64,000 nt of DNA from Coptis chinensis (Eukaryota > Streptophyta > Magnoliopsida > Ranunculales > Ranunculaceae): contig CM027377.1 in assembly GCA_015680905.1 (NCBI GenBank), positions 21,910,501-21,974,500 of the forward strand, read 5' to 3'. The notes under the pieces are model-generated. The model was not told the DNA's origin. It did no database searches and saw only the letters and a list, made by a program, of their open reading frames with translations. Below are positions 18,101 through 60,863 of this stretch, in pieces; positions within the stretch are counted from its first letter, which is position 1, and each line of letters starts with the position of its first letter. The translations under genes were made by a program, and so were the position numbers.

Positions 18101-19367
18101 AGGTAGAGAGCTACCATTTGCCATGTGAATTTTAAGAGGACCAACATAGGATTTGAGATTCTGAAGAGAAGTTGAATTATTTGTCATATGATTAGAAGCG
18201 CCCGAGTCGAGATACCAAGGTTGAGAGAATGATTTTTTGTTAGCTGAGAAGCCTAAAGCCGAGAGTGCAGAAACAATTTGGTGTAACATATCCTGAGAGA
18301 GAGGTGAGGATGTGGCAGCATGAGCATGAACAATAGGAGCAGGGGAACCCGAGAATCGGCAACCAACCGAATAATAAGCGCGATACCCTTCCTTCTTGGT
18401 GGCCGGATCCAACAATCACTGATGATGTGACCAGACTCCTTACAATAGTTGCAAAACTTCTTAGTGCAATTTTTGGCTATGTGGCCAAAATCCTTACAAA
18501 CCGCATTGAGTAGTGGCTGGATCCCATCTCTTGGATCGATGTTGAGCACTATAGGCGACCTGAGGAGTGACAGCAACCTGCTGTTCCATAGAGGCCCGAG
18601 TGAGTAGTCTCTGTTCTTCACAAAATAAATCCCCCAAACACACAACCAAAGAAGGAACGGGATCTCTGTTCATTAACTGAGACCTCACAGGTTCAAATTC
18701 TGACCTAAGTTTCATAAGAAACTGATCCCTTTTGCTAACCTCATGCACTTGTTGAACAATATCCAACCCATTAGTAGAAAGAGTTGCAGAAATAATATCT
18801 GAATATTCTGCCCACAAATTGGAAAAACCAGAATAAAATTCTTCAATGGACAACGCACCTTGAGAGTAGTTACCCATTTCAAATTCAAAATTTGAATCCG
18901 CGGGCGATAGGATCGATGGTAGATGGTCTTCAAGTAAGTCCACATTGCATGAGCTGTCTTGTAGGGGCGCAGGTTCAGGAGAATCTGGGGTTCCACGGAT
19001 CCAAGGATCCAAGACATAATTTTGGCATCCTTGGTATCCCAAGAAGTGAATTTGGCCAGTTCTTTCCCAGCATCAGGGGCTGCAGTAGTGCCATCCAGAT
19101 GGCCAAGAAGCTCCTTTCCCTTTACAAATAACGCGAACTGAAAGGCCCAGACAGAATAGTTCTTCCCAATGAGCCGAATGCAAATAAAATCACTTTTCTC
19201 ACAAGACATATCGAGAAAATACAATAACGCCAAGAAAACAAAACCCCTAGACTGTCGTGAAAGGCTCAACCACAACGCCAAGAAAACGAAACCACGCAAC
19301 ACTAATAAAACGAAAACAAGAAAAAAAAATGACTTTTTTTTTTTCTTAAACAAGAGCTCCGATACCA

Positions 19368-19593
19368 TGTCAAAGACTCAAGAATATTGTAAATCGGTAT
19401 TCTCCTTGAGATACCTATGTCCCTTTTATAGAATAACAAATGATATTTACAAGATATTATAATATATCTTCTAGGATATTTACAAGATATTCCCTAGGTT
19501 ATTTTGGAATGGAATACAAACAAATCTAGAGAATATAGGGATATGCTGGCTGGTGTGCTATATTAGGAAGAACCCAACTATTTTCCTTTGATA
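19368..19593 (-). repeat. LTR of copia A (5' LTR in element orientation)
   Basis: It pairs with 14914-15139 at about 96% identity. The primer-binding site lies just inside it, near 19351-19367. Confidence 0.9.
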
Positions 19594-24359: not shown

Positions 24360-24946
24360 ATGAAGCATTTGGGTGTTTCTCCTGATAGAAAGGTTTACAA
24401 TGCTGTCATTTATGCATTAGCAAAAGGTAAGCATGTGAAAGAAGCCTTTGATTTAATGAAGACCATGGAAGAGAAGGGTTTCAAACCAAATGTTGTTACT
24501 TACAATTCACTAATCAAGCCTCTTTGTAAGGGTCATCGGGTGGAAGAAGCGAAGGTGGTCTTTGATGAGATGTTGCAAAAGGGTTTCTCCCCGACAATTA
24601 GGACTTATCATGCTTTTTTTGGCATCATTAAAACTGGGGAAGAGGTATTTGAGCTCTTGGAAAAGATGAAAAATGCTGGATGCCACCCCGCTAATGATAC
24701 TTATATCATGTTGATTAGAAAGTTCTGTTTGTGGCATCGATTGAAAATGTTTTCAAAGGCGTGGAGTGAGATGAGTGAGAATGGATTGAGCCACGACCGA
24801 GCTCATATATAGTCTTGATACATGGACTCTTTTTGAATGGAAAGTTGGAGGAGGCCTGGAAGTATTATGAAGAGATGAAGGAGAAAGGATTTTTGCTAGA
24901 ACCAAAAACGGAAAAGATGCTTCAAGCTTTCGCCTCTGCCAGGCAG
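24360..24946 (+). pseudogene. PPR protein fragment, part 1 (5'-truncated, cut by copia B)
   Basis: The frame starting MKHLGVSPDRKVYNAVIYAL shows consecutive pentatricopeptide repeats of about 35 residues, with the usual VVTYNSLIKPLCK, VFDEMLQKGF and EEVFELLEKMKNAG motifs. These are P-class repeats of the kind found in organelle RNA-binding proteins. The N-terminal half of such a protein is missing; the codon before the first methionine is a stop. Near 24800 a one-base loss shifts the frame, and the continuation (YIVLIHGLFLNGKLEEAWKY) is read in the next frame. The sequence is then interrupted by copia B at 24947, with the last bases GGCAG duplicated on the other side. It resumes at 30433. Confidence 0.8.
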
Positions 24947-35180: not shown

Positions 35181-35421
35181 TTACGGATTAGATGAGTCTT
35201 CACTGGCATCCTTTCCATCGTCTGCAGTCTCTTTCAATTCATCAGCAGCAGAACTTTTATTGGGGGTGATGTATTTCCCCGTCATAGGATTAATAGGACG
35301 GGTATCACGTGGTCCGCCTTTACGTTCCATTGCAAGCATTGGTGGAGGGGGTAAAACTCCCGCCCTGAAGAGAATGCGTTGAACAGGTTCTGAAGGTTGG
35401 GCACCAACTGATAACCAGTAC
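35181..35421 (-). CDS. RPS16: RPS16 coding exon 3
   Basis: It follows the acceptor CTGTTGCAG and encodes [20 protein letters not shown] through [16 protein letters not shown] to the stop TAA at 35183-35181. The tail after the S16 core (about 30 residues, rich in D, E and S) is a common, variable extension in plant S16. Confidence 0.9.
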
Positions 35422-38400
35422 CTGCAACAGAATAGAGAGAAGGCAAAGCGAAAACAAGATAAGCAATAGTCATGCAGAAACGTTTTAACATAGAAATCTT
35501 GGCAACTCTAGTAAAGAAATAAAACACCTGTCAGAGTGTTTTAGCTCTGCCAATCATTGAGGAAACCATTGCAAGTAATTGCACCATGAAGAGTAACAAA
35601 GAATGCACTCATTAGTGATTAGTTGGTAAATAGCCTCACTGACAAGATGCGGCACAAAATATTTAACTATCATACACATTTCAATCGAAGAGTGGTAATT
35701 GAGGATAAACATGTCACGTTTGAGGACCACAAAAGGTGAAAACATTTCAATTAACAACTGAGACAAGAAAGTGAGAAAGTTTGATACTAGAGTGGGTAGT
35801 ACAGATTATGTAATAAAGAATCACACATGTTGGACAAGGATAAGAAGTGCCAGGCATGTAGACCTTTGTAAGTGGCTATATGTATTGTATTAACGCTTGT
35901 CCAAACGGCTATTAACAAATAAACAAAGAAAAAAAAAACGTAGTCAACAACATAGGTAAAAAATGATGCCAAGACAGTCCTCGGTAAGAGTGAAGACAGA
36001 GATAACAATTAAAAGAGATAGCATGACTTTTCACAAAATTTGAGATTAAAATTCCAAAATAAAAAGGCAAACCCTTCTATTTTTAGTGGTCTGATTATAT
36101 GTGAAGCCGTGAATATCAATTTGTAACATATGCACCAGCTTGGTAGCAGTCAGGCTCCCTTTCATCTTAGAAGTGAGAAAGCATATATTAAGGGCATACA
36201 GAATGGACAGCAGCAAGCGGAGCGAGAAAAGTGAATCGAGCATGTCAGAGAAAGCAGGTGGCCCTGTTTATTTCTTTATTTCTTAGGGTCAGATGAGAAC
36301 CCAATAAAAGTATGTCAGCGATGGAGACCTATATGTGATGGTTATTTTTTGAAGACTAAATAACTAATAATGAATAGAGAAATAATACAGGGCACACGTA
36401 AGGAAAATCACAAAGGAGAGAAGCAGCATCTAATGGTGCGGCATGTGTGATACCATGAACTAGTGGGAGATAGTACAGAAACAGAAAAATAGAGAACGGT
36501 ATGACAGGCTAAAAATTTAAACGAGCCAATCTTTTTCAACAAATAGTGAAACTAGGAGTAAATCTTCACAAGGTTGCTAGTGACTTAGTCAAGGAGCACT
36601 ACAGTGTCAGAAGCACCTAGGTGTCCACTCAAATAAGTTGTGTATGTAGGGGAGCGATATCCTCATAGGGCATCGCACTCGCGAGGAGCATAAGGGAACT
36701 GAAGATATCGACCTCCAAGACGGACTGAGAACAATAGCCCCTAGCAGTACACGAGTCGCAAAGAGATAGATGAATCCAAGGCGACCTCCAAGACCGACCT
36801 GCGAGCGGCTCGAGTAGGTGGTGCGAACGAAGATATCTCAAGATTTAACACTTTGCCGATACGAACGCCGGATAGAAACACACCCCACCGTGTAATGATT
36901 GCCAAGATCTTAGTGGTAATCTCATCACCGGAAATAGGGACTACCGCGATCTACCCCCAATCGCATCGGGGCATATCCAAAATCCAATTCAACACTCATC
37001 CGCGATCTCTACCCTACATTTGCACAAAAGAGTACACGCGTCGGAAGGATCTCCTCTCCCCGAAATCTATAAATACCACCTCCACGAACTACGTCCGGAC
37101 TGATTCTTCTCTCCCCAAGAAAAGGAAAACGAGAGAAGATAAGATAGGCAAAGCGGTTAAATTCAATAATTCCTCGGTCACATCCAAAATCCAAACCCCT
37201 CCCGTTCTTCCTTGTTGTAATTAGGAGAAGATCAAAACACTCCTTTACATTGGCGCCGCCTCGTGGTTTCGACATCGGAGAGCCACTTTAGATCGGGCTT
37301 CATCCATCTCTAACTCTCCACCCCACGAAGCATGGTTAGCATAGAAGATCAAGTTCTAACCTTGCCCACCGGTTAGGAATAACGAATGAGAACATTTCCT
37401 TGCTCGGGAGGAAAATGCTACTTTACGCTTCGGTGGATAGTTACCAAAGAACAACAAGTCGGCAACGGAGCCGAAAGCACAAAGATCAATGACGTTAATC
37501 GCCAGATTAATGAAGTTATCCCAAAGGATTGGCCGGACATCACGCGAAGAAGGATTCGACACGATTGTGCACAAGATGCTTAAGACGTATCGTGCATCTC
37601 CGCTCACCGCAGAGGTCCTCGAAATCCCTCTCCACACGACTTTTATCCAGCCACGCTTTCCCATGTACGACGGCAAAGACATGCCTTGGTCGACATGTGG
37701 CTCGCTATATTCGAGTTTGGCACTTTACACTTCACCCGAAGTTTGATTATCTCCACTGCAGATTATTTCCAAACCTTTCAAAGATGGCGCCTCGATTGGT
37801 TCTTTTCATCGAGTCCGATTCTATAAACACCTTCAACGAAATTTTTATCGATTTGTTCGCCAAACCAAGACGTCCACAACAAAGGAAGAAGGCGATCTTG
37901 ATTCTCCGCTTTCAATTATCATTCAAGGAGGACGAAACTATTCGTGAATTCCTATGACGGTTCAAGGCCGAATCATTTGCGGCATGGAAAGTGGCTTGAA
38001 AGAATCTTTCGCCATTAATCGGCCTTTTCCAATGCTTGCCGAAGTCGCGACACCGACCTCGCTAGGTCGTTAATGAAGGAACGCCAGAGACACCGTCCGA
38101 GCTCTACGCTCGCGTGGACAAGTACATCAAGTTGCAGGAAACTTTAAAACTCCATGGTTTAGCAGAGAACCACGAGGTCGCTGAAGTCTCGGATCGTACC
38201 CCACGGGTCAAGAAGCGCCGACAGTCGCTTTGCACCCAGCTTCGTGCGCGACCGATAATGTTAGAGAGTTCATTTGTCGACATCGCCCCCCACCACATAC
38301 TGGATAAGATTAAGCGCGCCCCATTTTTCCGGCCAAACATCAGGCAACCCGCAGATCGACCTGGCAAGCCTTTTTGTGCATTTCACAAAGCAAAGTGCCA

Positions 38401-41400
38401 TGAAACTGATGCATGCTGGGGGCTCAAGCATTATCTCCAAGACCTGGTGGAAGATGGTCATATCAAATAATACACTAGCATTCCTGATGGCGACCTGCAT
38501 CACAAGTTGATGGCTCGTCGTGTACGTAGTCGATCTCCACCTCACCGTCACCACCAAGGGTACAGCTCGTCCTCACAAGTAGGACGCCCCGCGGATCGTT
38601 CGCCACGCGAGAAGGCAAAGACTCGTCCGATTGTGACAATGCCCGCACTATTCATGTGATTACCTTTCCGGACGATTCCGTGACCTCTTCCCGAGAAAAG
38701 ACGCCGGTAGCGCTCTTCAGAAGTCTATCATTTTACTTCACAGTGCCCACGCCTGGGTTCAGTCGCAGCAGCGATATCATTTTCACAGAGGCCGACTTAA
38801 GCAAAGTCTGCCTTCCTCATAATGACGCATTGGTAGTTCATGTCAAAATCAGCGACTCGATACCGATCAAAGCGTCGATCGACCCTAGCAGTTCCCGCGA
38901 CATCTTATTTTACCACACCATGCAAGAGATGAACCTCCCCAAGTCCGTTCTCGTAGACCCAATCGCCCCCCTTTACGGGTTCAATGGCTCCAGAGCCGAC
39001 CCCATTGGTGACATTATCTTACCAGTATCGGTGGGATCTCGAGAGGATAAGATTACATGTAATACACGGTTTTGCGTTCTCGACATTAAGTCGTCCTACA
39101 ATGCCATACTAGGGCGACGCTGGATCCATCAGATGCAAGCAGTCCCATCAACATTGCATCAAGTTCTACGTTTTCCAGGACCTAGGGGAATGATGGAGCT
39201 TAGAAGCAATCACCAAAGTGTATCATCAGAAACGGATAGTATCAACCAACAGGATCGCGATGGATCGACACCCATCATACACGAGCCCACCAGTTACACA
39301 ATGGCACATGATTTAGTGGCCGGAGTCCAGACTCGACCTGCCAAGCAGAACGCTGGGGGCTCCAGCAAGCCAATACCTGCAGTCGCTCCCCGACTCATTC
39401 CTGCACAAGCAAAGCTACCCAGCATTGATACAAAATCAGCCGCCCCATCGACTAGAGTGTCAAGAATCGCCTCGATTGTGGTGGGCCAACACACGCGTGC
39501 CAACAACGGCCGTACCACCGTGTTGTCCATCCCTCCATCTTTGATCCACGTTTCGGGGATGCCCCCATCAACGCTGATGCTCAAGTCGTTCAGACCCCAA
39601 CTGCTAGCCAGACTAGCCCAGAGCACGCTCAAGACCCCGAGAGCGAACTACCAAAGCAAATACCCACCATCCGTTGTAACACCTCCAAAGGGCGTAAAAG
39701 AAAGAGTGAACTTAGGCAATCACCGACGACCCCAAGTTCGTTATGTAGGGCCAACCTCGACCCCATGTTAAAGACCCAAATTTTGTAAATTTTTATCTAT
39801 GAATAAAGATGTTTTTGCTTGGTCGAATATTGATGTGTCTCGAGTCGATCCTCAAATCGCATGCCATAAATTAAATGTGAACCCCAATGCTAAACCAAAC
39901 GACAACGACCTCGTAGACTATCCCCGCGGCTTTCAAAAGCCATCAACGACGAGGTCGAAAAACTCAAGCAAGTCGGTTTCATCAGAAAGGTAGACTACCC
40001 CGAGTGGATTGCAAATATTGTCGCCGTCCCCAAAAAGAATGGCACAGTTCGCCTATGTGTCGATTTCACAAATGTCAATCGCCACACGCCAAAAGACAGT
40101 TTTCCCTTGCCTCGCATTGACCAACTTGTCGACCAAACCTGTGGTCATGAGCTCCTCTCCTTTATGGATGCGTACAGAATGGGTACAACCAAATCCCACT
40201 CGCCGAGGAAGATCAAGAGAAGACTTCGCTTCATTACGGAGCAAGGGATCTATTGCTACAACGCGTCCTCCCCGCTCGGTCCAAGAACGCCGGAGCGACA
40301 TACCAACGCCTTTGGTCACCGACATGTTCCAAGACATGTTAGCGACACCATGGAGGTCTACATTGACGACATGGTGGTCAAAGCAAAAAGCCGGTGATCA
40401 CCTCACCCACCTCGAACAAGCGTTCTCCGCATTACGCCGTCTGGGCATGAAGTTGAACCCAGAAAAATGCCTCTTTGGGGCGTCCTCCGGCAAGTTTTTA
40501 GGGTATCAGGTGTCGCAGCGTGGGATCGAGGCAAATCCTGACCAGATCCGAGCGTTCTTAGATATGCCCGATCCACGCACAAAGAAACAGATACAGAAAT
40601 TGTCGGGAATGGTCGCGGCGCTCAACCGGTTCATATCAAGGGCCTCAGATAAGTGTAGACCATTCCTGCAGCTCCTCAAAAAAGGCGAGCCATTTTCATG
40701 GAGCGATCAATGTCATCATGCATTCGCTACTCTCAAAGAGTATCTCACCACGCCTCCCGTCTTAGCCAAACCAATATATGGAGAGACACTGGGGCTTTAT
40801 CTGGCCATATCCGATTTCGCCATCAGCTCAGTTCTCTTTAAAGAGGAGAACAATTCAGAGAAGCCAATCTACTTCACGAGTAAGACACTCACGCCAGCCG
40901 AAAAGAATTACGCCTTCCTAGAACGAGCTGTACTTGCTTTGTTGTATTCCGCACGGAAGTTCAGGCCGTACTTTCAGGCACATCAAATCAAAGTTCTTAC
41001 CGACCTTCCATTGAAGAAAGTCCTTCACAAAGAGAACAAGACTACTCGAATGGCAGTTTGGGCCGAAGAACTCGGAGAACACCACATAGAGATCGTCCCC
41101 CGCACTTCTCAGAAAGGTCAGGTCGTCGCCGATTTCCTAGCAGATTTCCCAGTCGAGGACCCCAGCTGGGAACAAGAAACTGAGCTCCCAGACACAAAAA
41201 CGAGAGTCAAATCGCCCTGGTCTCTCTTTGTGGATGGTTCGAGTAATCTCGGTGGAAGTGGCATCGAAGTCGTCTTAGTTTCCCCCGATGGAAATATGAT
41301 TGAAAAGTCAGTCCGCATCGTCTTAGGGGGCACATCGCTTGATGACGACATCTACCCCCGACCTGACGTACTGGCCACGTCATCTCCTGACCTAGATCGG

Positions 41401-44400
41401 GCATTACCCCCGCCTATCCTATCCTCTTCTTCCAACTCAACCTCCATGCCGACACTTACTGTTTCTTCATCCTCGTACTCTCCACAACTTAAAGATATCT
41501 CTCGGACCTCCTCCGATCGAGTATCATCAGAATCGGACATTATAACAACTCTTTTCTATCAAATATTCAGTCCTAAACCCTTTAGCCTTACAATAACCTA
41601 CCTACTTAAAATAACGAGCCGGACAGAGAGGAAAGCAAATGGAAATTGGAAAGATAACAGCAACAGGAGCACTCACCTAAGAAACCCTAGCTGGCGTTTT
41701 TGCGGAGGAAGAAAACACGAAATAACTTTTTGGTATCTCAAATCTGATTTTGTATAAACCGCCCGTTCAGTTACCAAGGAGTAATCATTACACCTACGCT
41801 TATAGCCCGCGACGTGTTCCAAGGCACCGCCCTTTTCAAATTTCGATAACGCTGGCGACACGTTTCTTCTCCAACTGCTACGATTCTGTCACGTGCAAGT
41901 AAGGTAAAACTACCTTTTTCCCGCCAATTCACCAGCCACAAAGATTCAAAAGTGGTGCCCTACTACCGGTTCATCCACTACTGTTCGCTCATGCTCCACC
42001 ACGCTCGTCCGACTCTTTTCTCGCCAAGTAGCGCTTTCCACTACATCTATGCCCCATCGAGAGGGTCGGTGGGGGAGCCGATATCCTCATAGGGCATCGC
42101 GACTCGCGAGAGCATAAAAGCTTAACCAAGATATCGACCTCCAAGACACCTGAGAACAAATACCTAGCAGCATACGAAATCGCGCAAAGATAGATGAATC
42201 CAAGGCGACCTCCAAGACCGACCTGCGAGCGGCTCGAGTAGGTGGTGCGAACGAAGATATCTCAGTACGAACACTTTGCCAGATACAGAACGCTTCGGAT
42301 AGAAACACACCCCACCAGGTGTAATGATTGCCAAGATCTTAGTGGTAATCTCATCACCGGGAAATAGGGACTACCGCATCTACCCCCAATCAGAACAGGG
42401 CATATCCAAAATCCAATTCAACACTCATCCGCGATCTCCACCCTACATTTGCACAAAAGAGTACACGTGTCAGAAGGATCTCCTCTCCCTGAAATCTATA
42501 AATACCACCTACTGGAACTACGTCAGACCTGATTCTTCTCTCCCCAAGAAAAGGAAAACGAGAAGATATCAGGGGCTAAGCCGCTTCGCTCCTCGGCGAC
42601 CTCATCCAAAATCCAAACCCCTCCCGTTCTTCCTTGTTGTAATTAGGAGAAGATCAAAACACTCCTTTACAGTGTAATATGTAATGGAAAAAAGAAAAGA
42701 GAGTCATGAGATTGAGACTAAAATTAATTAAGGAATAAGGATCGAGAATAAGCAGCTCGCTAATCCATATCTTATTGTTTGTGATATGGGCATTGTCAAG
42801 TACTCAAGTGGTTGTCTTTAAGAAGATGGACTTAGATGTATACCAGGTAAATGTGATCCATAGTTTGTGGAAGATTGGATCGATGACTCGACTATCGATA
42901 TTGAAACCCCTCCCCACCCGCCAAAAAAGATAAAAGAGCGGTGGCGCAACTTTAATGACTTTAAATTTGAGGAGATGCACAAAAATGCTTTTTTTAGAAA
43001 GATATTTCAAGAAAAACAAGAAATATCTAGAAGTTAACACTTTGGATCTTTGGTACTTTAGTCTAAGGAGGGGGTTATCTGGATACCTAAGATGTCGCCC
43101 TCAAAATTAGGGGACAGATTCGCGACCATAGAGGTGTGCTTCATGCAATTTGAAAAATGTATCAAAGTCTTGATAATGGAAAAATTTGAAAACCATGTAC
43201 TACAGAAAGACAAGTAAAGCTAACGTTAACTTGATAATTAGCCTCCTTATGAATATGAGAAAAACAGGTTTCAAACAAGCCAGCCTTCTAATGAATGCCT
43301 TCCATTAGTTTTGAAGTTCCAAAGGAAGCTTGCAAATTTAGCTAATGGATCATGTTATATCCATAGGGTATAACAGCCGTTATCCCAAGCAATCCACACC
43401 ACAGTTAATTCCAAATCACTATATATGCATAGTGCATAGTGGACGCCCAATACGCATTGAAGACGTTGAGATTTAAAGATAGGATAAGTTATATGAAGTT
43501 TAGCCGTTAAGAATAGGATTAAGTTAGGAACACTGTAGGACTACTTCCAAGAGGTGATAAACTAAGACACTATACTGAAGTTTTTTTATGTCGAAGAATG
43601 ACACTCCAAATATATATATATATAAACACTTTTTATACGACAGTTTATACAGTTTATATAACATTATGTATGTATGTATTATAGTGTTTTTTCTATTGTT
43701 AATTAAAAGGTTTTCACTTCTATACAAGTCGAACACAAGACCTCCCTTATGGACAAGCAACCCTCAAACCACTAGACCAAAGGCAATTTCTGCTATAAGA
43801 AAGATACTAGTTATTAGATACTTAGACTGGAAGTCTAGAACACCAATGTAAAAAAAAAGAGCACCAAAAGTCAATAAGATTATGTACGATTGTTTTGTCT
43901 TCCCCAAGTCATTATCGATATGTGTGCTACTGTGTCTTCTTTACTAAGAAACTAAGAATACCACACTAATACTCTTTCACTCAAACAATATATCTTCTCT
44001 CCATTCTCATGCATTTTTCATCTCTTAGAGACAAACAATCCGATTGTTACGGTGTTACCCTCAAGATCTCACTATTTTAGGTAAGTTCACTCTCTCTCTC
44101 TCCACCATTTATCAATTTGTTTATGTTTTAATATTTATGCAACTTATATATTGTATATTTGTGGCTTTCTCTTGTACAACATTAACAAGCATTAACAGCA
44201 AGAATATCATATTGCTTCTAAGCTTCTTCTCTTTCTAACGTGGTTTGTATTATGCCGACCAACTCATATCAATATGTACCCTCTAATAATAATTTTCTTT
44301 CATATATTGCATGTCGCAACGTCTCGCAAATGTTAACTATTTGCAATTAATTTTCTTCCTTAATGTAGAAAGGTATGATATTACTCTAGCTACTCAAGTG

Positions 44401-47400
44401 TTTGTATAAAATTGTTTATATTTGGTTTCTTTTCAGGTGAGATATGTCTACGCCAGGAGAAGATGAAACTAGTAATGTTAGTCATGCAACAATTACTACT
44501 CTTACTGATCAATCTATTCCCGCGACTTTGGTAGAATCCAACGCAACTCCAAACGGTGGTGATGAAAGTCAACTTACTTAAAGTAGAAAAAGAAGACCTA
44601 CTTCTGAAGTGTGGAACCACTTCAAAAAATAGAAAATCAATAATGCAATGAAGGCTATTTGTAATTATTGTGCAAATAAGCTTGTAGGGGGGCCTAAGGA
44701 TGGGACATCACACTTGTGTAATCATTTAAGGATATGTCCTTTGTGGAAGCAAACAGATATAAGACAACCAATGTTGAGTTGCTCTCGAAAAGCTGATGGG
44801 AAAACCATTATGAGCACCTATTCCTTCGACCAAGAAAGTGCATTGAACTCGCTTGCAAAATTGACAATATTGCACGAGTATCCAATTGCAATGGTTGAGC
44901 ATTATGGATTTAGGGAGTTCTGCCGCAATATCCAACCCATGTTTTCGTATTTTTCCCGGTACTTAGTGAAGAAAGAAATTTTTAGGATTTATGAAGATGC
45001 AAAGAGTAAAGCCATGGAATTGATGGGAAAAACTCGGAGTAGAATTGCCATTACTACTAATATGTGGACATCTTCTAACCAAAAAAGGGGATTTATGGTT
45101 GTCACAACACATTTCATTGATGACTCTTGGACTCTTGTACTGGTGTTTCTCTCTTTCATAATTTTTGTTTTTTTTTGTTTTTTTTTGTTTTTTGCATTTG
45201 GTAAATGTTGCATCTGCTAAATATTTTAATCTTTCATTTTGTACAAGGTTTATATATGTACCATGTCCTCATACCTCTGAAAGACTTACTGATGCTTTGA
45301 TTAAATGCTTGTTGGATTGGAACCTAGATCGTAAACTATCGACTTTGACAGTAGATAATTGTACGACTAATGATTCTATGGTTGCCCTTCTTTTGGAGAA
45401 CCTTTCTTGTAATGAATTGTTACTAGGTGGTGATGCACTCCATGTGTGTTGTGCTGCTCATATTTTGAATTTGATTGCAAAGGATGGGTTAGATTTGATT
45501 ACTATAGGTATTGAGAATGTTCGTGACAGTGTTGTCTACTGGACAACAACACCTAAAAGAGAGGAAAATTTTTCTGAGGCAGTTCGTCTATTAAACATTT
45601 CAAACACTCTTAAACTAGCCCTAGATTGCAGAACTAGGTGGAACTCAACCTATTTAATGCTTCACATTGCTTTGATATACAAGGATGCCTTTTTTTGTTT
45701 GAAACATCGTGAAGCGCAATACAAGTGTTGGCCTAGTGATGAAGATTGGTTGTTAGCAGATGAAGTTTGTGATAGGTTGGAACTTTTTTTTTAAGTAACT
45801 GAATTGTTTTCTGGAACTAAATATCCCACAATTAACTTGTTTTTTTCCTAAAATTTGTGAGATTAGAGTAGCACTTAATGAGTGGGGGTATTCTAACTAT
45901 AGCGTAGTTCAACACATGGCAACAGAAATGATCAAAAAAATTGAAAAGTATTGGATCTCTCTTCTTGGCATAATGGATGTAGGGAATGTTTTGGATCCAC
46001 GATATAAGATGAAAGGGGCTGAGTTCTATTTTCTTCTTATTTTTCCAAATGGTGAGGAAAAAGAAATTAAAGTTGTTCAGGATCTTTGTGCTAAGTTGTT
46101 AAAAGATTATCAAGCTAATGAGAAATCAAATGTGAAAGCTCGTCATATAGGTGAAACTTCAAGTGAAGGGTTTTCTGTATCACAAGGGGTTCATGGAAAG
46201 AAAGGATGTTATTTAACTAATATGTTCGACTTGTTTGTTTCAAGTAGTACTTCTACTACTGAGCATGTTAAGTCAGAACTTGACTATTATTTGGAGGAGC
46301 ATATCTTACCCAGAAAAGATGACTTCGACTTATTGGCTTGGTGGAAAACAAATGGAAATAAATATACTACTTTGCTTGCTATTGCTAGTGATGTTTTAGC
46401 CATTCCAGTGACTACCGTTGCTTCCGTGTCTGCTTTCAGTACTAGTGGTAGAATTTTCAGTCCGCATCATAGTAAACTCCTTCCAAAGACCTTGGAGATA
46501 TTAATGTGTGCTCAAGATTGGTTATGGGATGAAAGTTCAGGTAGTTAAATCTCTTTATGAAAAAGTTGAACTGTATTTTTTGTTAGTTAAATGTGAGCTA
46601 ATCATTTTTTTAATTCTTTTAGTGCTAGGAACACCATGTGGGAAAAGTTTATACACTGAAGACATGGATGTTGATGAGGTAAATGATAGAGCAAAGTATT
46701 TACAAGAAATCACGTTAATCTGATTTTGATTATATATATTGATACCAATTGCTATTATTTATTGTTGTAGGATGGCGGTTGCACTGATCCTTGAGACAGA
46801 ACCATGAAGTCATTAAAAAAACAATTTTTTGGTTTTTGTGGTGGAAGAGGCTTTTGTTATGCCTTTTGTCTTTTGTCTTTTTTTTGTAAAAAGGGGGAAT
46901 GCCTTATATTAGAAAGAAACAATGAAATACAAGAAACTTCTGTTTGCTCTATACAATCTATATTACAGGCTGAAGGATCATAACTTCTGGAGTATGTGTT
47001 AAACAACGCAGGGAAGCACAAATATTTTTGTACTTGGCAAATTTAATCTACCACCTAGACTACTGTGAAAGCTTATTAGTTTTTATTAAAAGTGAGTATG
47101 ATGAGTACAAGTCATGATTTTTTTTTTCTTTGTTTCAAAGTTGGTTAATGAGGAATGGGGAGAGTATGGGGACCCGGTACCCATACGGGGCAGGGATAAA
47201 GAATCCCCGACTACTCTCAAGTGGGGATTGGGGCGGGTATGAGGAATGGCAGGTATGGGGAATAAAATTGAAGTTAGGGACGGGGATGGAGATGGCAAAC
47301 CCGCCCCATTTACATCCCTACTATATCTCACTCTACAAATTTACTTACGACCTGATTTTTTGTGGATGACATCTTTCTATCATGAATGACAACCCTGCAA

Positions 47401-48394
47401 AAAATAGGCTCATTTGGAAATTTCTAAAGATGTCAAAAGAAGGTTACAAAATTTTAAATCCTGACCATTAAAAAAAATTACATTTTCAAATCAACTTTGG
47501 AAAGGAGTAGAGATTTCGAAATGAACTCAAAATTTGTATATATGATCTTTATGGTGATAATACCATACCCACAAAGTATTAGCTCTTAGTTCAACTTAGA
47601 AAAGGGTGTTGTATAAACTGTTGTACAAAAAGTGTTGTCAGAGGGAGAAGAAAAAAATAATACTAGTTGGCTATTTATCCGTGTATTAGTCATTGAAGCT
47701 TATATTTTTTTTTTATGAAGCTTATATACCTACGCCGTGTCGGATAGGTGTGTCAATGGAACTTAAGGAGAGTACTTATTGACAAATGAATAAGATTCAG
47801 AAAATAACCAAAGGGGTCATCCCTTGATAAGGTGAGAGCATTTCTTCCATATGAGTACTACACATATATATTATTCCCTGATTCTTTTGTATATTATCAC
47901 AAACTAAAAGTAAACTCATGAATTGACAACTAACTGAAGATATGGTCACCTACATCCCTACCGTCATTACATTACGCATTTACATAGAACTAATATTGCA
48001 ATTCTCCAAAAGAAAATCACTTCATAGACTACCAAGAACCATAACAATGACTATCAGAATCTAAAATATTATACTTACATCACTCTATCGAAGTTTAAAC
48101 CCATCCGTTTCCCTCCATCCTGACCTACATAATCTTAGAAAATAAAAATTACAAAATTTAATAAAAAGGATAATAAATAACTTCAAATTGAACAATGAGC
48201 AGTATAAAAATTAACACTTTAGCTGATAAGAATCATTAATAAATGGAAGGGGGAAATGTACCAGGCAAAGGATTGTAATAGCCCAAGACTTCAAGATGTT
48301 TGCCATCTCTTGGAGATCTACTATTTGCAGCCATAACTCTATAAAATGGTTTGTTTTTGCACCCAAATCGTGATAGTCTCAATCTTACCGCCAT
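35181..48394 (-). CDS. RPS16: Small ribosomal subunit protein bS16, nuclear-encoded, organellar (whole gene, 3 coding exons)
   Basis: Three exons join exactly: 133 + 46 + 241 = 420 nt, or 139 residues plus stop. The protein starts [20 protein letters not shown], continues with [34 protein letters not shown] and [20 protein letters not shown], then LPPPPM, and ends in an acidic, serine-rich tail. This is the bacterial-type S16 fold and size. Nuclear S16 proteins of flowering plants serve mitochondria and in some species also plastids, with targeting information in the N-terminus; which applies here cannot be told from sequence. Intron 1 is 137 bp. Intron 2 (35422-48078) is 12,657 bp and holds a Tat-like element, a SINE-like piece and a decayed hAT transposon. 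No lesion is seen in any exon, so the gene looks functional despite the insertions. Confidence 0.9.
35422..36640. other. RPS16 intron 2, 3' part
   Basis: AT-rich intron DNA between exon 3 and the Tat-like element. No other gene is supported. Open frames here are short and unlike known proteins. Confidence 0.6.
36645..37249 (+). repeat. 5' LTR of the Tat-like element
   Basis: It pairs with 42070-42671. Long identical runs alternate with small clusters of indels and substitutions. A TATAAATACCACCT motif (37065-37080 region) may be the LTR's core promoter. Confidence 0.88.
41325..42060 (-). other. Antisense insert in the Tat-like element resembling a host promoter and first exon
   Basis: Read minus, the segment carries in order: promoter-like DNA; a leader with GCTAGGGTTTCTTAG, which is typical of plant 5' UTRs; a GTGAGT donor; a T-rich stretch; then ATG at 41540 opening a 62-codon frame that is strongly acidic and serine-rich ([33 protein letters not shown]). 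It occupies the place where integrase would be. It could be a host gene 5' end captured by the element, or one of the extra antisense frames known in Tat elements. I do not recognise the protein. Confidence 0.45.
42070..42671 (+). repeat. 3' LTR of the Tat-like element
   Basis: Partner of 36645-37249, ending at the GTGTA target copy. Confidence 0.88.
42677..43590. other. RPS16 intron 2, middle part
   Basis: AT-rich intron DNA right of the Tat-like element. No gene is supported. Confidence 0.5.
43600..43790 (-). repeat. Probable tRNA-derived SINE fragment
   Basis: Minus-strand 43785-43726 contains an A-box-like TGGTCTAGTGGTTTGAG and, about 30 bases on, a B-box-like GTGTTCGACTT, the spacing of a Pol III internal promoter. 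It is followed by non-tRNA body sequence and an AT-rich tail ending in (TA)n near 43.61 kb. No tRNA cloverleaf can be folded across it, which favours a SINE over a tRNA pseudogene. The boundaries are approximate and no clear target duplication is seen. Confidence 0.5.
44444..47320 (+). mobile_element. Decayed hAT (Ac-like, RICESLEEPER-type) DNA transposon in RPS16 intron 2
   Basis: From ATG 44444, just after a TTTTCAG acceptor, the frame reads [12 protein letters not shown] and then a BED zinc finger ([28 protein letters not shown]). The middle RNase H-like domain follows ([20 protein letters not shown], then [30 protein letters not shown]), and then the C-terminal dimerisation region ([38 protein letters not shown]). 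A last exon at about 46622-46723 may be spliced on. The host-like frame is dead: TAA and TAG stops lie in the N-terminal part, and the central and C-terminal parts are in different frames. The G-rich DNA at 47.14-47.32 kb ends CCATTTACATCCCTA, an Ac-type terminal repeat. The left terminus was not found. Confidence 0.75.
47140..47320 (+). repeat. Right terminal region of the hAT element
   Basis: Repeated GGGGACGGGG/GGGCGGG-type subterminal motifs end at CATCCCTA, the reverse complement of the TAGGGATG start seen in Ac-like elements. Short open frames on both strands here are an effect of base composition. Confidence 0.6.
47321..48078. other. RPS16 intron 2, 5' part
   Basis: AT-rich intron DNA between the hAT right end and the donor of exon 2. 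Nothing else is supported. Confidence 0.6.
48079..48124 (-). CDS. RPS16: RPS16 coding exon 2 (46-bp micro-exon)
   Basis: It is bounded by the acceptor TATGTAG and the donor GAT|GTAAGT and encodes [14 protein letters not shown]. It is too short to be noticed without its neighbours but fits both phases exactly (enters at phase 1, leaves at phase 2). Confidence 0.88.
48262..48394 (-). CDS. RPS16: RPS16 coding exon 1
   Basis: It starts at ATG 48394 and encodes 44 residues plus the first base of a glycine codon. The donor is CTG|GTACAT. An acceptor-like TTTATTTCAG lies 7 bases before the ATG, so the start codon probably follows a 5' UTR intron. Confidence 0.9.
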
Positions 48395-48401
48395 TTTGCA
48401 A

Positions 48402-48600
48402 CTGAAATAAACTAGTATGGCTTTATATCTCTGTAAATTGAGGGAGAAAAAAGTTAGAAATTGACAAAAATTCGGAGACCAAATTGAGAGGAAGTTGGTG
48501 TGATTGTGAAATTATAATAAAAATTGAAAATTTGATTTTAAGGAAGTGGAGATTTTAGAAGGGTTTAGGGTTTTACCTTTTGTAGAGAGAAGAGTGAGAA
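48402..48600 (-). promoter_or_regulatory. RPS16: Probable RPS16 5' UTR with leader intron
   Basis: A donor-like CAAAAG|GTAAAACCC at 48577/48576 and the acceptor before the ATG would remove an intron of about 175 bp (48402-48576). The pyrimidine-rich CACTCTTCTCTCTAC just upstream resembles plant leader and transcription-start context. No transcript evidence is available here. Confidence 0.4.
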
Positions 48601-48745
48601 AGTGAGGAGAGAAATAAATATAACTGATGTGGGCCCGGAACAAAAAAAGAAAACAAAGTGCACCAGCAGGGAATCGAACCCGGGTTTGTACGTGGTCTGT
48701 GGATTGGTGTCCCTTCATGTTTGGCTCAGTAGTCATGAAAAACTA
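48480..48745. repeat. Duplicated RPS16 promoter/leader segment, copy 1
   Basis: It shares with 50385-50700 an ordered series of blocks: AAATTATAATAAAAA, a leader block ending in TTTCACC or TTTTACC followed by TTTTG or TTTG, a GAGAAATA block, TGTGGGCCCGG or TGTGGACCCGG, an A-rich terminator tract, and a tRNA-Gly sequence. This is the copy attached to the working RPS16 gene. Confidence 0.7.
48659..48698 (-). pseudogene. Decayed tRNA-Gly (3' half only)
   Basis: The T arm and acceptor end (CCCGGGTTCGATTCC, then TGCTGGTGCA) match the intact tRNA-Gly at 50626-50696. The anticodon arm is damaged, and the D arm and 5' half are replaced by unrelated sequence. It cannot fold into a tRNA. Confidence 0.75.
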
Positions 48746-48749
48746 ATGT

Positions 48750-49239
48750 TGATGATAATGAAATGGACAAAGCATTTGAAATGGATGAATACTCTATACT
48801 AAGAAATGAGTAAAGTCCCATGAGTAGATGACTCTCCTAAACCAAGTTATAAATGGAATTGTATATAGTTGTTAAATTATGTGAAGTGATGGAATTTTTA
48901 TTGGATCAGAAAAAGGATTACTTCTCTATTCTCTCTTGCTATGTTTGGATCTTGATTAAAAAAGACTATATGATAACTACAAGAGTCTCACTATGCAGGT
49001 TTTCTTGGCGATCCGGATAGAAAATGCCCAAGGGAACATTGCTTGGGTAAAAAATATTGGAAATGTCACACGAAGCTGATCTAAGATAGATTGGATAAAC
49101 CTTGTATCAAAATCACAAAATAAAATAAACACTTGGTGTCACTTGTACAATTAGAACTGCATCATTTGATAAAGTGTTATAGTGTTATTGTTTGGTAAGA
49201 GTATACGGTAAGAGTGTGCCATGAAGTTGTTGGTTATTG
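48750..49239. other. Non-coding DNA
   Basis: No gene or repeat is recognised between the decayed tRNA and the hAT-type element. Confidence 0.5.
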
Positions 49240-49247
49240 GAATTATC

Positions 49248-50194
49248 TAGGGGTGTCTCTTTTTGCTGAATTTTCGATTTTTTTGAAATCTGACTCGAAA
49301 TTAGTCTGGCTCTAGGTGTAGTTTTCATGGGTCAATTTTCTAATTTTCCGATTTCCAAAAATTCAAAAAAAAATTGGATCGGATTAGGATATAACTCTAA
49401 AAACCGATCCGATTCGATATCCGATCAGAAAATTTCGATATATAGCCAATCCGAATTTTCTGATATTATTGCCAATTTATTCCGAAAATATGTACTTCTC
49501 TCACTATCCACTTAATTAGATCTCGACCGTTCATTCATTTTCTAGTTTTTTACTTCCAAAAACAAAACAAAAACATAACCTAGCTGCTACTTCCCCACTT
49601 GAATTGGACCACTCCACAGTCATTACACCGTCTGTTATAACAACAATGATATGAAAAAAAAATGTCATTGAGTATGACTTCTAGACCAATTCAAAAGCCA
49701 AATTCCAATAGATAGAATGTTTTGTAAAGCTACTTAGAGTCCAAGACCATAATCCATTATTCATGCAGACATTTCACGTTTCAATTTTTGCATATGAAAA
49801 AAGATTGAAACATTACAAATACCGAGACCTCAACAGAATGTAATGCTTGCTGTTGGTGGCTGCAGGTTATTTTTCTCATTTTTTCTTGGATCACTTGTTT
49901 GAATGAAAATGAGTTTTCTCAGTAAACAAGTGCGTATTGTTGTTGGTACATTAGTGTTGTGGACATGGTTTTTTCTCCCTACAATGAATATTGGCGTATA
50001 ATATTCTAAAAATAATTGAAAATAAAGACATCTTTGAAAATTTACCAAGTATTCCAAAATTCCCAAATTATTCTGAAATTTTTGAAAGTTCTGAAATTTG
50101 AAATATATTTTGAATCCGAAAAAAAAATTGGATCGGATTTGGCTAGTATATTAAGTTAAAGAGGTTAATCCGATCCAATCCGAAATCACCCCTA
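49248..50194. mobile_element. Non-autonomous hAT element, 947 bp
   Basis: The ends are TAGGGGTG and CACCCCTA, an 8-bp perfect inverted repeat. They are flanked by a perfect 8-bp target duplication GAATTATC (49240-49247 and 50195-50202), the length diagnostic for hAT. Subterminal GGATCGGATT-type motifs recur near both ends (about 49.37 and 50.13 kb, and in reverse just before the right end), as expected for transposase binding. No transposase is encoded. The intact ends and target copy suggest it is not very old. Confidence 0.85.
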
Positions 50195-50384: not shown

Positions 50385-50700
50385 AAGTTAGCGTCATAGC
50401 ATGTTAATGAAATTATAAAATTATAATAAAAAAATTAAAAATTGATTGAAGTAGAGTATTAAGGTTTCACGGTTTCACCTTTGTGACACAGCAGAGAGAG
50501 AATCAGAAACGAGTTTGAGTAATTGAGTATGACTGTCTGAGCACTCCGAGAGTGAGTACACAGAGAAATATAAGAACAAATATATTCTTGTGGACCCGGA
50601 TAAAAAAGAGAGCTGATAATAGTTTTGCACCAGCCGGGAATCGAACCCGGGTCTGTACCGTGGCAGGGTACTATTCTACAACTAGACCACTGGTGCTTGA
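50385..50700. repeat. Duplicated RPS16 promoter/leader segment, copy 2 (with intact tRNA)
   Basis: Homologous to 48480-48745 in the same orientation but with more insertions and substitutions in the leader part. No RPS16 exon follows it, so it is a promoter-side duplicate. It holds the intact tRNA-Gly gene. Confidence 0.65.
50626..50696 (-). tRNA. tRNA-Gly (anticodon GCC)
   Basis: The minus-strand 71-nt sequence starts GCACCAGTGGTCTAGT and ends GGTTCGATTCCCGGCTGGTGC plus the discriminator A. The acceptor stem pairs fully, the anticodon stem is GTACC/GGTAC with loop CTGCCAC (anticodon GCC), and the T arm is intact. One D-loop base differs from the usual plant form (GTTGTAG where GTGGTAG is common). 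An A-run on the plus strand at 50602-50607 gives a T6 Pol III terminator about 20 nt downstream. Confidence 0.95.
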
Positions 50701-56439: not shown

Positions 56440-59400
56440 CTCCCCCTCAAGTTGGAGAGTGAATATCAAGAACTCCCAACTTGCGAATTAATCTCATGAA
56501 GGTGTCCTTGCTGAGAGGTTTAGTAAAGACGTCAGCCACCTGATCTGAGGATGGAACGAACGTAGGAGATAATAACTTGGCCTGTATCTTGTTGCGTAAG
56601 AAATGACAGTCCAATTCGATGTGCTTCGTTCGTTCATGAAAAACTGGATTTTGAGAGAGATAAAGGGCGGCTTGATTGTTACAAAACATGTTCATCGGAA
56701 AAGGATGAGAGATGCCTAAGTCAGAGAAAAGATACTTCAACCATTGAAGTTCACACGCCAGAGTAGCCATGGAACGATATTCGGCTTCAGCAGAAGAACG
56801 GGATACAATGCTCTGTTTCTTTGTTTTCCAGGATATAGGACTAGAACCAAGAAAAGTGCAATAACCACTAGTATAACGATGAGTGACAGGGCAGCCAACC
56901 TAATCAGAGTCACAGAAACCAGAGATGTGTAAATAACTATTAGCGGATAAGATAATCCCTTTGTTGATCGAACCTTTAAGATAGCGGAGTATACGATGAG
57001 CAACATCTAGATGTGGAGTCCATGGGGACTGCATGAAACGACTGAGATAATTAACAGAATAAGTTATATCTGGACATGTAACTGTGAGATATAAGAGACG
57101 CCTAATCAAGCTACGATAGACAGTAGGATCCTGAAGTAATGTGTCATCATCGGTATGGAGGTTGATGTTTTTGTTCCATAGGGAAGTCAGAAATACGACC
57201 ACCAGTGGTACCACAATCAGACAGAATGTCCAAAAGACATTTGTGCTGTGTAAGAAATAATCCTTCTTTGGAACGAGCAATCTCGATACCCAAGAAATAT
57301 TTTAGACGTCCTAAGTCCTTGATATAGAACTTTGCTTCTAAAAATTTCTTCAAGTTCTGAATGAGAGATGGATTGTTGCCTATGATCAGAATGTCATCCA
57401 CATATACAAGGGCAAATGTAGAATCAGAACCACAAATATTAGTGAATAGAGAATAGTCGAACTTAGACTGAGTGAAGCCGGTAGATAGTTTGACAAACCA
57501 TTGCCGAGAAGCCTACTTGAGTCCATATAAAGACTTATTGAGGCGACATATCCTGTTCTCCCCCTGTTTAGCGAATCCAGGAGGTAATATCTCATCCAAA
57601 TCGCCTTGGAGAAACACATTGTGGACATCCATCTAATGAAGAGTCCAATGTCTGATAGCAGCAATGGAGAGAAGTAATCGAACAGTGACTAATTTTGCAA
57701 CGGGTGCAAAAGTGTCATGATAGTCTTGGCCTTCAATCTGATTGTAACCCTTGGCAACCAGACAAGCTTTGTAACGTTCAATAGAACCATCTTAATGATA
57801 TTTAATCTTGAAAACCCATTTACAACCAATAGGCTTATGATGAGAGGATGATGGAACAAGAGTCCATGTGTGATTTTGTTCCAAAGCTGCAATTTCAGCA
57901 GCCATAGCAGCTCTCCATTTTGAAATTTTGACAGCTTGAAAAAAGGATGTAGGAACAACTGAAGAAGACACTTTATACAAAAAAGCTTTATGACAAGGAG
58001 AAAAGTTAGTGTCAGAAACATAAAAAACCATAGGGTATGGAGTGGAAGACCGTGTTACCTTAGAGTCCGATTGGAGGAGGTTGGCCGAACGAGGGACTGT
58101 AGGTGCCTTGGTGAAAGTAGGGCAGTGATAATCTTTGATGAGGAGTGGTGGGGGTTGTCACACTCTAGTAGATTGAGATGAGTTAGGAGGATTGAGGTGT
58201 GATGACTGAGGATCTTCCAAAAGTGCGGGTGACGGAGCTGTAGGAGTGGGAAGATTGTCAGGAAGAAGATACCGCGGGTCGCGCTCAATTTGGGCTGGAG
58301 AAGGGAGCGGGCGCGCTCCGTCCATTGGAATTACATGAGATGATTGAATGTCGAAGGTTTCATTGTCTAGGATGGGTAAGGGAGAAACGGGCAGATGTGA
58401 TTGGGGGAAGATAAATGTTGATAGGGGAATACAGTCTCATGGAAAATTATGTTACGAGAAGTATAAATTTTCTTGGAAGATAAATCATAAATGCGATAGC
58501 CTTTTTGAGCATAAGGATAACCAATGAAGATGTTAGGTTTCCCGCAGTGATCAAACTTATTTTTAATGAAAGTGTTGTGAGCAAAACATAAACTACCAAA
58601 AACACGAAGATGGACAAGAGTGGGAGGTGTTGTAAATAAAAGCTCATGAGGTGATTTGTCATTTAACAAGGTGCTAGGGATTTTGTTAATAAGATAGCCT
58701 GCGGTGAGAATGCATTCACCCCAGAAGGATAATGGGAGATGAGCTTGAAAACGTAATGCTCGTGCAACGTTGAGTAAGTGACGATGTTTTCTTTCAACAA
58801 TAGCGTTTTGTTGGGGAGTAGCAACACAATTACGTTGGTGGATTACCCCATATTTTGAAAAGAATTGTTGCATGTTATGAGATATAAATTCAGAGCCAGT
58901 GTCGGATCGAAAGACTTGGATTTCATGAAAATGGTCATCAATGTTGCTATGGGCAGATATGAGTGAATGTATTGTAAAATGAAATTGAGTATGAACCATG
59001 GCAAAAAAAGATTGTAAATGCATGGCAGTTTCAGATTTGACAGTCATAAGATAAATTCATGTAGCACGACTAAAATCATCGACAATAATTAAGAAAAAAC
59101 GAGCATTGAAATATGATGGTAAATGAAAAAGACCCCAAATGTCACAATGAATCATTTGAAAAGGTCTAATGATTTTTATTGAACTATAAGAAAAAGATAA
59201 ACGTGTTTGCTTAGCTTGCGGACATACAATGCAAGTAGCATTATTGGAACTAGAGATGAAAAGAAACTGCTTAGCTAAAATCTGCAAAGGCGTGGAAGAT
59301 AGATGTCCTAGGCGATAATGCCATAAATTATTTGTGGTGGAGTTGTGGGATGAGCAAACGGAAGCTAGTTGGAGATGGTAGAGTCCCCCATTAAGCCGTC

Positions 59401-60863
59401 CCAATCCAATCTTCTTCTTCGTTAACTGGTCCTGAAAAAGGCAAGAATCATTAGTGAACGTGACAGAGATGGGGTGAGATTTGACCAGTTCACTAATGGA
59501 AAGTAAATTAAAATAAAAGGTGGGAACAAACAGAACGTTGTCAAGACGCAAAAGGGGAGAGAGAATAACACTACTAACATGAGTAATTAAATGGTCTGTT
59601 CCATCCGGAAGTTTAATAGTAGAATGTGTTAAACAAGTATGATAATGAGAAAACAGATGTAATGATGAACATACATGATTGGTAGTACCAGAGTCAATAA
59701 TCTATATGGATTTAGAAAAACACGAGAGAGATATACCTGTCAGGTTTGCTTGTGAAGAGGTACTACCTGAATCAAGCAAACTGAGAAGTTGGTTGTATTG
59801 TTATATGGAGAAAATAGGAGAATTGGAGTCTGTAGCAACTGAATTAGCCTGGGCAGGTTTGGGTGGATAACCGTGCAGTTTGTAACATGTACCAATATGA
59901 TGTCCAACTTGGTTACAATGGTTGCAGAATGGACGAGTGCATGGGCTCCCGGTGGCCCTTCAGATCCGAAGGCACGCGGCGCCGAGGTCATTCGCGAACC
60001 ACCAGTCGCCGTGGAGGTTTAGACGGACTGATTTGAAGAAGAAGCCCGGTTGGTCTTCAAAATGAGTACTTTCGAGGCGGCAGCCGTTTGGAGCGTAAGG
60101 AAGAGAGAGTGCATGAATATCTTGTTGCTTCTCCTCTTGTCGGATTAAAGAATAAATCTTGGACATACGAGGAAAAAAGGATCCATCAAGAGAATTTGAT
60201 CATGGATGGATTGAAAACGAGCATCTAGGCCTTGCATGAATTTCATAGAACGACCGTCTTCAACCTCTTTGGCAAAAATAGATGCATGACCACAAGTACA
60301 AGCAGGCATAGTAGATAAAGAACTTAATTCATCCCAGAAAGATTTAAGCAAAGTGAAATAAACAAATATCGGACGATTGTCTTGCTTGAGAAGAGTGACG
60401 GAATCCTTCAGTTGAAAAACCTTGGGTGCATTGGTTTGTGAAAAACGATCACCTAGATCTTTTCAGATTTCGGATGCAGAGTCGGCATAGAGGATGCTGC
60501 CACGGATATCTGGAGTAACAGAATTGAGAATCCATGAAGCAACAAGGTCATCACATCTCGACCACTTGGATTTTTCTTTGGGAGTGTTGGGAGGAGTTAC
60601 AGAGCCATTGACAAAACCAAACTTATTCTTTACTCGAAGGGCTCTAGAGATAGATCGTAACCAAATTGGATAATTGTCCCCTGATAACAGAGGAGATACG
60701 AGGATAGCCGTGGGGCTATCTGAGTGGTGGACATAGAAAGGATCATCAGAATCTGGAGGAGAGTCATTATTAGGAGTGGAGGGGTCGGCCATTGAGAATT
60801 GAGAGGAGGCGGAAGCTGATAAAGTTTAGGATTAGGGTTTGGATCAATATTAGGTTGATACCA

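Follow-up and report, generated by a model that had tools for sequence, protein, structure and literature searches.

Can a gene for a ribosomal protein still be spliced when transposons have stretched one of its introns to more than 12 kb? This question is raised by the RPS16 gene in a 64,000-nucleotide stretch of the Coptis chinensis genome (contig CM027377.1), which is referred to here as the window. Three exons on its minus strand join exactly at GT-AG borders into a bS16 protein of 139 residues, and the second intron holds both a Gypsy-type element and a hAT remnant. The probable explanation is an ordinary nuclear gene for an organellar bS16, which is spliced from exon 1 through exon 2 to exon 3 and whose intron 2 has grown stepwise by transposon insertion.

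Structure of the RPS16 gene

The gene model consisted of the following features.

48394-48262, minus strand: RPS16 exon 1 (133 bp; ATG at 48394), from the splice model and a PF00886 match
48261-48125, minus strand: intron 1 (137 bp; GT-AG)
48124-48079, minus strand: RPS16 exon 2 (46 bp), whose last base gives Met60
48078-35422, minus strand: intron 2 (12,657 bp; GT-AG)
35421-35181, minus strand: RPS16 exon 3 (241 bp, stop codon included), from the splice model

The first-pass annotation of this DNA had proposed that three small exons, one of them 46 bp long, form a complete S16 protein, and the coordinates, lengths, GT and AG borders, and product all proved exact. Exon 1 alone matched PF00886, the bS16 domain, with 60.1 bits (cut-off, 27). 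When the window protein was compared with solved structures using phmmer, the best match was 6xyw_Bo (E value, 9.8e-66; 223.6 bits), labelled S16-2 chloroplastic/mitochondrial, followed by 9evs_O (bS16m; E value, 1.5e-62; 213.3 bits). We take both to be chains of plant mitoribosomes. Among the best 60 of 68 structure matches, the sole plainly chloroplastic-labelled chain was 28jw_p, with 59.7 bits. A plastid-type S16 query, in turn, found the chloroplast S16 4v61_AP, presumably from spinach, as its best structure match. The window protein is nearer to nuclear or mitoribosomal S16 than to plastid-encoded S16. Its predicted destination is the mitochondrion, and possibly the plastid too.

A minus-strand transcript spliced across the three exons would yield this protein without an N-terminal extension. 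Its transcription, splicing, import, and function are predictions from the sequence. That the exons represent a chance or fossil arrangement is extremely improbable; the exact splice joins, the full-length homology, and a paralogue of the same architecture (described below) all speak against it, and the chance version is already refuted.

Transposons in intron 2

The enlargement of intron 2 by transposons was evident from the following features.

36645-42671, plus strand (antisense to RPS16): Gypsy-type long terminal repeat (LTR) element of 6,027 bp, from its LTR pair, target-site duplication, and RNase H domains
36645-37249, plus strand: 5' LTR of this element, from the LTR pair (LTRs of about 605 bp)
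42068-42671, plus strand: 3' LTR of this element, inner start approximate, from the LTR pair
44633-46548, plus strand (antisense to RPS16): decayed hAT transposase with BED finger, RNase H-like, and dimerisation domains
43625-43651 and 47610-47636, no strand assigned: 27-nt inverted repeat pair, 93% complementary, enclosing the hAT remnant

The Gypsy-type element begins with TG, ends with CA, and is flanked on either side by the 5-bp target-site duplication GTGTA (36640-36644 and 42672-42676). Its plus-strand frame at 39994-41757 matched RT_RNaseH_2 (85.1 bits) and RT_RNaseH (72.6 bits), and RVT_1 was matched weakly, under the cut-off (21.5 bits). An integrase, which in Gypsy elements follows RT-RNase H, was not found in the four open frames scanned (37514-37957, 38066-38470, 38530-39771, and 39994-41757). 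The 6-kb gypsy element suggested by the first-pass annotation was thereby located, with its target-site duplication, RNase H domains, and weak reverse transcriptase match. The hAT transposon, also suggested there, was recovered through its transposase domains, which sit in separate open frames, the BED finger being barely above its cut-off. The enclosing inverted repeats may mark the two ends of a DNA transposon.

The two LTRs were identical at 515 of 615 alignment columns, 21 of which were gap columns. Their differences were mosaic, with identical blocks beside noisy ones, despite the perfect target-site duplication. This mosaicism perhaps reflects consensus errors or gene conversion. The intron flanks differed from empty-site copies of the locus by only about 2 to 5% (pairwise blocks), and an age based on such LTRs would be unreliable. 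LTR dating was dropped on account of the mosaic pattern and of mismatches clustered as in poorly polished copies.

A short interspersed nuclear element (SINE)-like piece, the third component claimed for the intron, was not confirmed. The RNA polymerase III B-box pattern, in its commonly known exact form, had no match in intron 2, a search that did not extend to diverged B boxes, the A box, or the tail; its two matches in the window, at 48670 and 50637, both lie upstream of exon 1. ARAGORN and Rfam (gathering thresholds) reported only a tRNA-Gly at 50626-50696. This is a tRNA-Gly (GCC) gene, and part of its 3' half recurs (35/38 identical) at 48659-48695, some 265 bp ahead of the start codon of RPS16.

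Close copies of the locus

We searched the assembly of 935.6 Mb in 116 contigs for further copies; the search scored the best candidates only, so that copy numbers are lower bounds. At least four further close copies were found, and these are named here by their contigs: C62, C15, C6 (near 92.07 Mb), and C52. The Gypsy-type site was empty in all four, and for C62 the filled and empty junctions were read from the sequence. LTR elements do not excise precisely. The insertion therefore postdates the split of the window copy from the others. The hAT stretch was alignable in all five copies and is thus older than the duplications. The relative order of the two insertions, hAT-type before Gypsy-type, can be read directly from the copies.

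In the proposed course of events, a hAT-type transposon common to all five copies would have entered intron 2, the segment would then have been duplicated to other places, and the Gypsy-type element would have inserted last, into the window copy alone. Because both elements are antisense to RPS16 and lie away from the splice sites, splicing most likely persists.

The copies differed in their surroundings. Upstream of the start codon, the following feature was delimited.

48395-49311, minus strand: 5' flank, alignable to C6 (to about 49311) and to C15 (to 48567), probably the native flank

C15 shared the first 173 bp of this flank, up to 48567, then jumped to 49935 and continued with piecewise matches to 52884. 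C62 and C52 part from the window at 48473, which is 79 bp ahead of the start codon, and the 30 kb of C62 beyond this break held no window match of at least 150 bp at >88% identity. On the 3' side past 33946, C6, C15, and C62 were alike and unlike the window; the C52 sequence covered ends before this point. C15 also carried a 13.4-kb insert in intron 2 (114648-128016 of C15, near window position 47942). The C6 copy had only 288 bp at this site, partly matching the end of the C15 insert.

The C62 copy had intact exons, GT-AG borders, 139 residues, and an intron 2 of 6,786 bp. It differed from the window at 109 of 7,167 noncoding sites (1.52%) and at 3 of 420 coding sites (0.71%), two of these being synonymous, with bases in exon 3 specific to the window, and the third giving Lys60 in place of Met60. 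Coding indels were present in C15 (exon 3), C6 (exon 1), and C52 (exons 1, 2, and 3). In these three copies, private substitutions lay mostly within 5 bp of another (37/53 in C15, 40/60 in C6, and 41/60 in C52, against 0/13 in C62 and 18/84 in the window), and private indels were mostly of 1 bp (23/34, 25/31, and 26/35, respectively, against 0/3 in C62 and 4/24 in the window). This pattern suggests poor long-read consensus in duplicated sequence. Since the mismatches were clustered and 1-bp indels were many, the coding indels of C15, C6, and C52 are insecure, and we did not adopt a pseudogene call for these copies.

The same pattern raises the question of whether the five copies are partly an artefact of assembly, with the unplaced C15, C52, and C62 being haplotigs or poorly polished duplicates that stem from just one or two genuine loci. 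The clustered substitutions and 1-bp indels would fit this explanation, as would the collinearity of C52 and C62 across all 8.3 kb of C52 compared. Their structures differ, however, as seen in the 13.4-kb insert of C15 with its jump from 48567 to 49935 and in the break of C62 and C52 at 48473; moreover, the C6 copy sits in a 100-Mb contig, and the noncoding divergence of C62 from the window amounts to 1.52%. A partial artefact is possible though doubtful, and it would be compatible with the other explanations considered here.

Diverged relatives

A complete paralogue was found on contig C3 with the following exons.

31857128-31857260 of C3: exon 1 of the paralogue
31860412-31860457 of C3: exon 2 of the paralogue (46 bp)
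31864817-31865015 of C3: exon 3 of the paralogue

With GT-AG borders and a complete frame of 125 residues, the paralogue has both introns at the same positions as the window gene, and its exon 2 is likewise 46 bp long. It was identical to the window protein at 87 of the first 115 residues and matched 6xyw_Bo with 184.9 bits. As a refuting result, the first-pass annotation had named a complete and intact RPS16 at another place combined with silence of this copy; the first half of this was observed, both in C62, whose protein differs only at residue 60, and in C3. The idea of the window copy as the sole intact RPS16 is therefore ruled out.

Two intronless relatives were also observed. The matched part of the one at C4:83058381 is free of stops, with a frame change near its end, and the one at C6:10744414 contains stops. 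In addition, five loci (L013, L015, L016, L017, and L018) carry a first exon of the diverged RPS16 type, the first codon of L015 not being Met. No exon 2 or exon 3 was recognised within 6 to 9 kb downstream of these loci, which are possibly fragments moved by transposons.

Constraint on the window copy

The existence of other intact copies leads to the question of whether the window copy has been superseded. It would then be silent or poorly spliced, and bS16 would come from C62 or C6 (if the C6 indels are assembly errors), from C3, or from both sources. The intact C62, with its 6.8-kb intron 2 and Lys60, and the complete gene at C3:31857128-31865015 could serve this role. Several results weigh against our preferred explanation in the same direction. 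Met60 was found in the window copy only; C62, C15, C6, and C52 have Lys here, as do the C3 paralogue, 6xyw_Bo, and 9evs_O. The position is not strictly conserved, with Arg in chain 5aj4_AP. The Gypsy-type insertion is likewise confined to the window among the five copies. Furthermore, the coding sequence of the window branch fits neutrality. There were 81 window-private noncoding changes over about 7,100 columns, where any changes that arose on the stem shared by the other copies are counted as private too. Against this rate, 3 coding changes were seen where 4.8 were expected under neutrality, 1 nonsynonymous change where 3.7 were expected (P = 0.12), and no coding indels where 1.4 were expected (P = 0.24). 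With no significant departure from neutrality, purifying selection on the window copy is unproven. Intactness compatible with neutrality over a short age says little about function.

On the other side, C62 and C52 depart from the common 5' flank close to the ATG, and no match to the window of the length and identity given above resumed in the 30 kb of C62 beyond. Only the window copy combines an intact frame with the 5' flank held in common with C6. For these two reasons, the intact frame and the shared flank, the window copy may well be expressed. We consider its replacement by the other copies rather unlikely, and the explanation of an ordinary gene that is spliced across its enlarged intron remains the preferred one.

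Plastid rps16

The first-pass annotation had linked the nuclear gene to the loss of plastid rps16 in many lineages. No plastid contig was identified among 33 rbcL matches, the stop-free ones being short fragments covering at most 106 of 299 positions. We examined rps16 in plastid DNA transferred to the nucleus. Among five places with rps16 exon 2, this exon was open in four, and three kept both exons and an open frame. Because of these three copies, plastid rps16 was probably intact when the nuclear copies moved, which would be recently; its present state is not proven thereby. The three open copies do not indicate a replacement of plastid rps16 and weaken the plastid-loss argument. The interpretation of the locus was upheld in one part: RPS16 has an intact coding sequence in the nucleus, interrupted by an intron full of transposons. 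A heavy bearing of this one gene on organelle translation found no support in the form proposed, given the intact C62 and C3 genes.

A more elaborate scenario is an early stage of replacement, in which the Met60 copy on the one hand and the Lys60 copies and C3 on the other would share out mitochondrial and plastid bS16 with plastid rps16 still present; we regard this as very unlikely. In this scenario, RPS16 would be in the course of multiplying as a segment of some 8 kb (the Gypsy-type element not counted), observed in five places, and its copies would be acquiring differing flanks and intron inserts.

Implications and neighbouring sequence

Since transposon-filled introns are known in plants and other intact copies exist in the genome, the find is an ordinary bS16 gene, one of several RPS16 copies, with a transposon-swollen intron. 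For annotation, a 46-bp exon next to a 12.7-kb transposon-filled intron is presumably easy to miss or to split, and the near-identical unplaced copies would confuse read mapping. The filled and empty pair, the window with its 12.7-kb intron and C62 with its 6.8-kb intron, could show whether a 6-kb insertion in an intron reduces how strongly a housekeeping gene is expressed, although any such comparison must allow for their different 5' flanks.

Elsewhere in the window, three further regions were noted.

15706-19377, minus strand: Copia-type gag, integrase, and RVT_2
24360-24812: open frame with pentatricopeptide repeats, PPR_2 in three stretches
58367-60825, minus strand: Copia-type gag, Pol_BBD, gag-pre-integrase, a weak integrase match, and SH3

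Comparison with known systems

The window protein was collinear with nuclear S16-2 (6xyw_Bo) over residues 1-125 and with bS16m (9evs_O) over residues 1-128, and like them has no N-terminal extension. It differs from them in Met60 in place of Lys60 and in a C-terminal tail that diverges beyond about residue 115.

In Malpighiales, according to PMC8018952, nuclear RPS16-1/RPS16-2 pairs replace plastid rps16, and the targeting information lies inside the mature protein. The genome studied here likewise has two diverged types of nuclear bS16 gene, but a replacement of plastid rps16 is not indicated.

PMC6600660 deals with rice exons no longer than 51 nt. Large introns in Arabidopsis, as described in PMC5575664, offer the closest comparison for intron 2. 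Six of eight tested introns annotated as longer than 5 kb were validated there by reverse transcription-PCR, the longest being 11,602 bp. These introns were mostly transposon derived, with one exception, and in one case a recent insertion did not greatly change the amount of mRNA. The introns of AT3G05410.2, AT3G60961.1, and AT2G34100.2 are filled by LTR, LINE, or other elements in a similar way to intron 2 of RPS16 and are still spliced, and the intron of AT3G05410 is short in another ecotype. RPS16 intron 2, at 12.7 kb, is slightly longer than the longest of the validated Arabidopsis introns, whose splicing was demonstrated, whereas that of the window gene is predicted.

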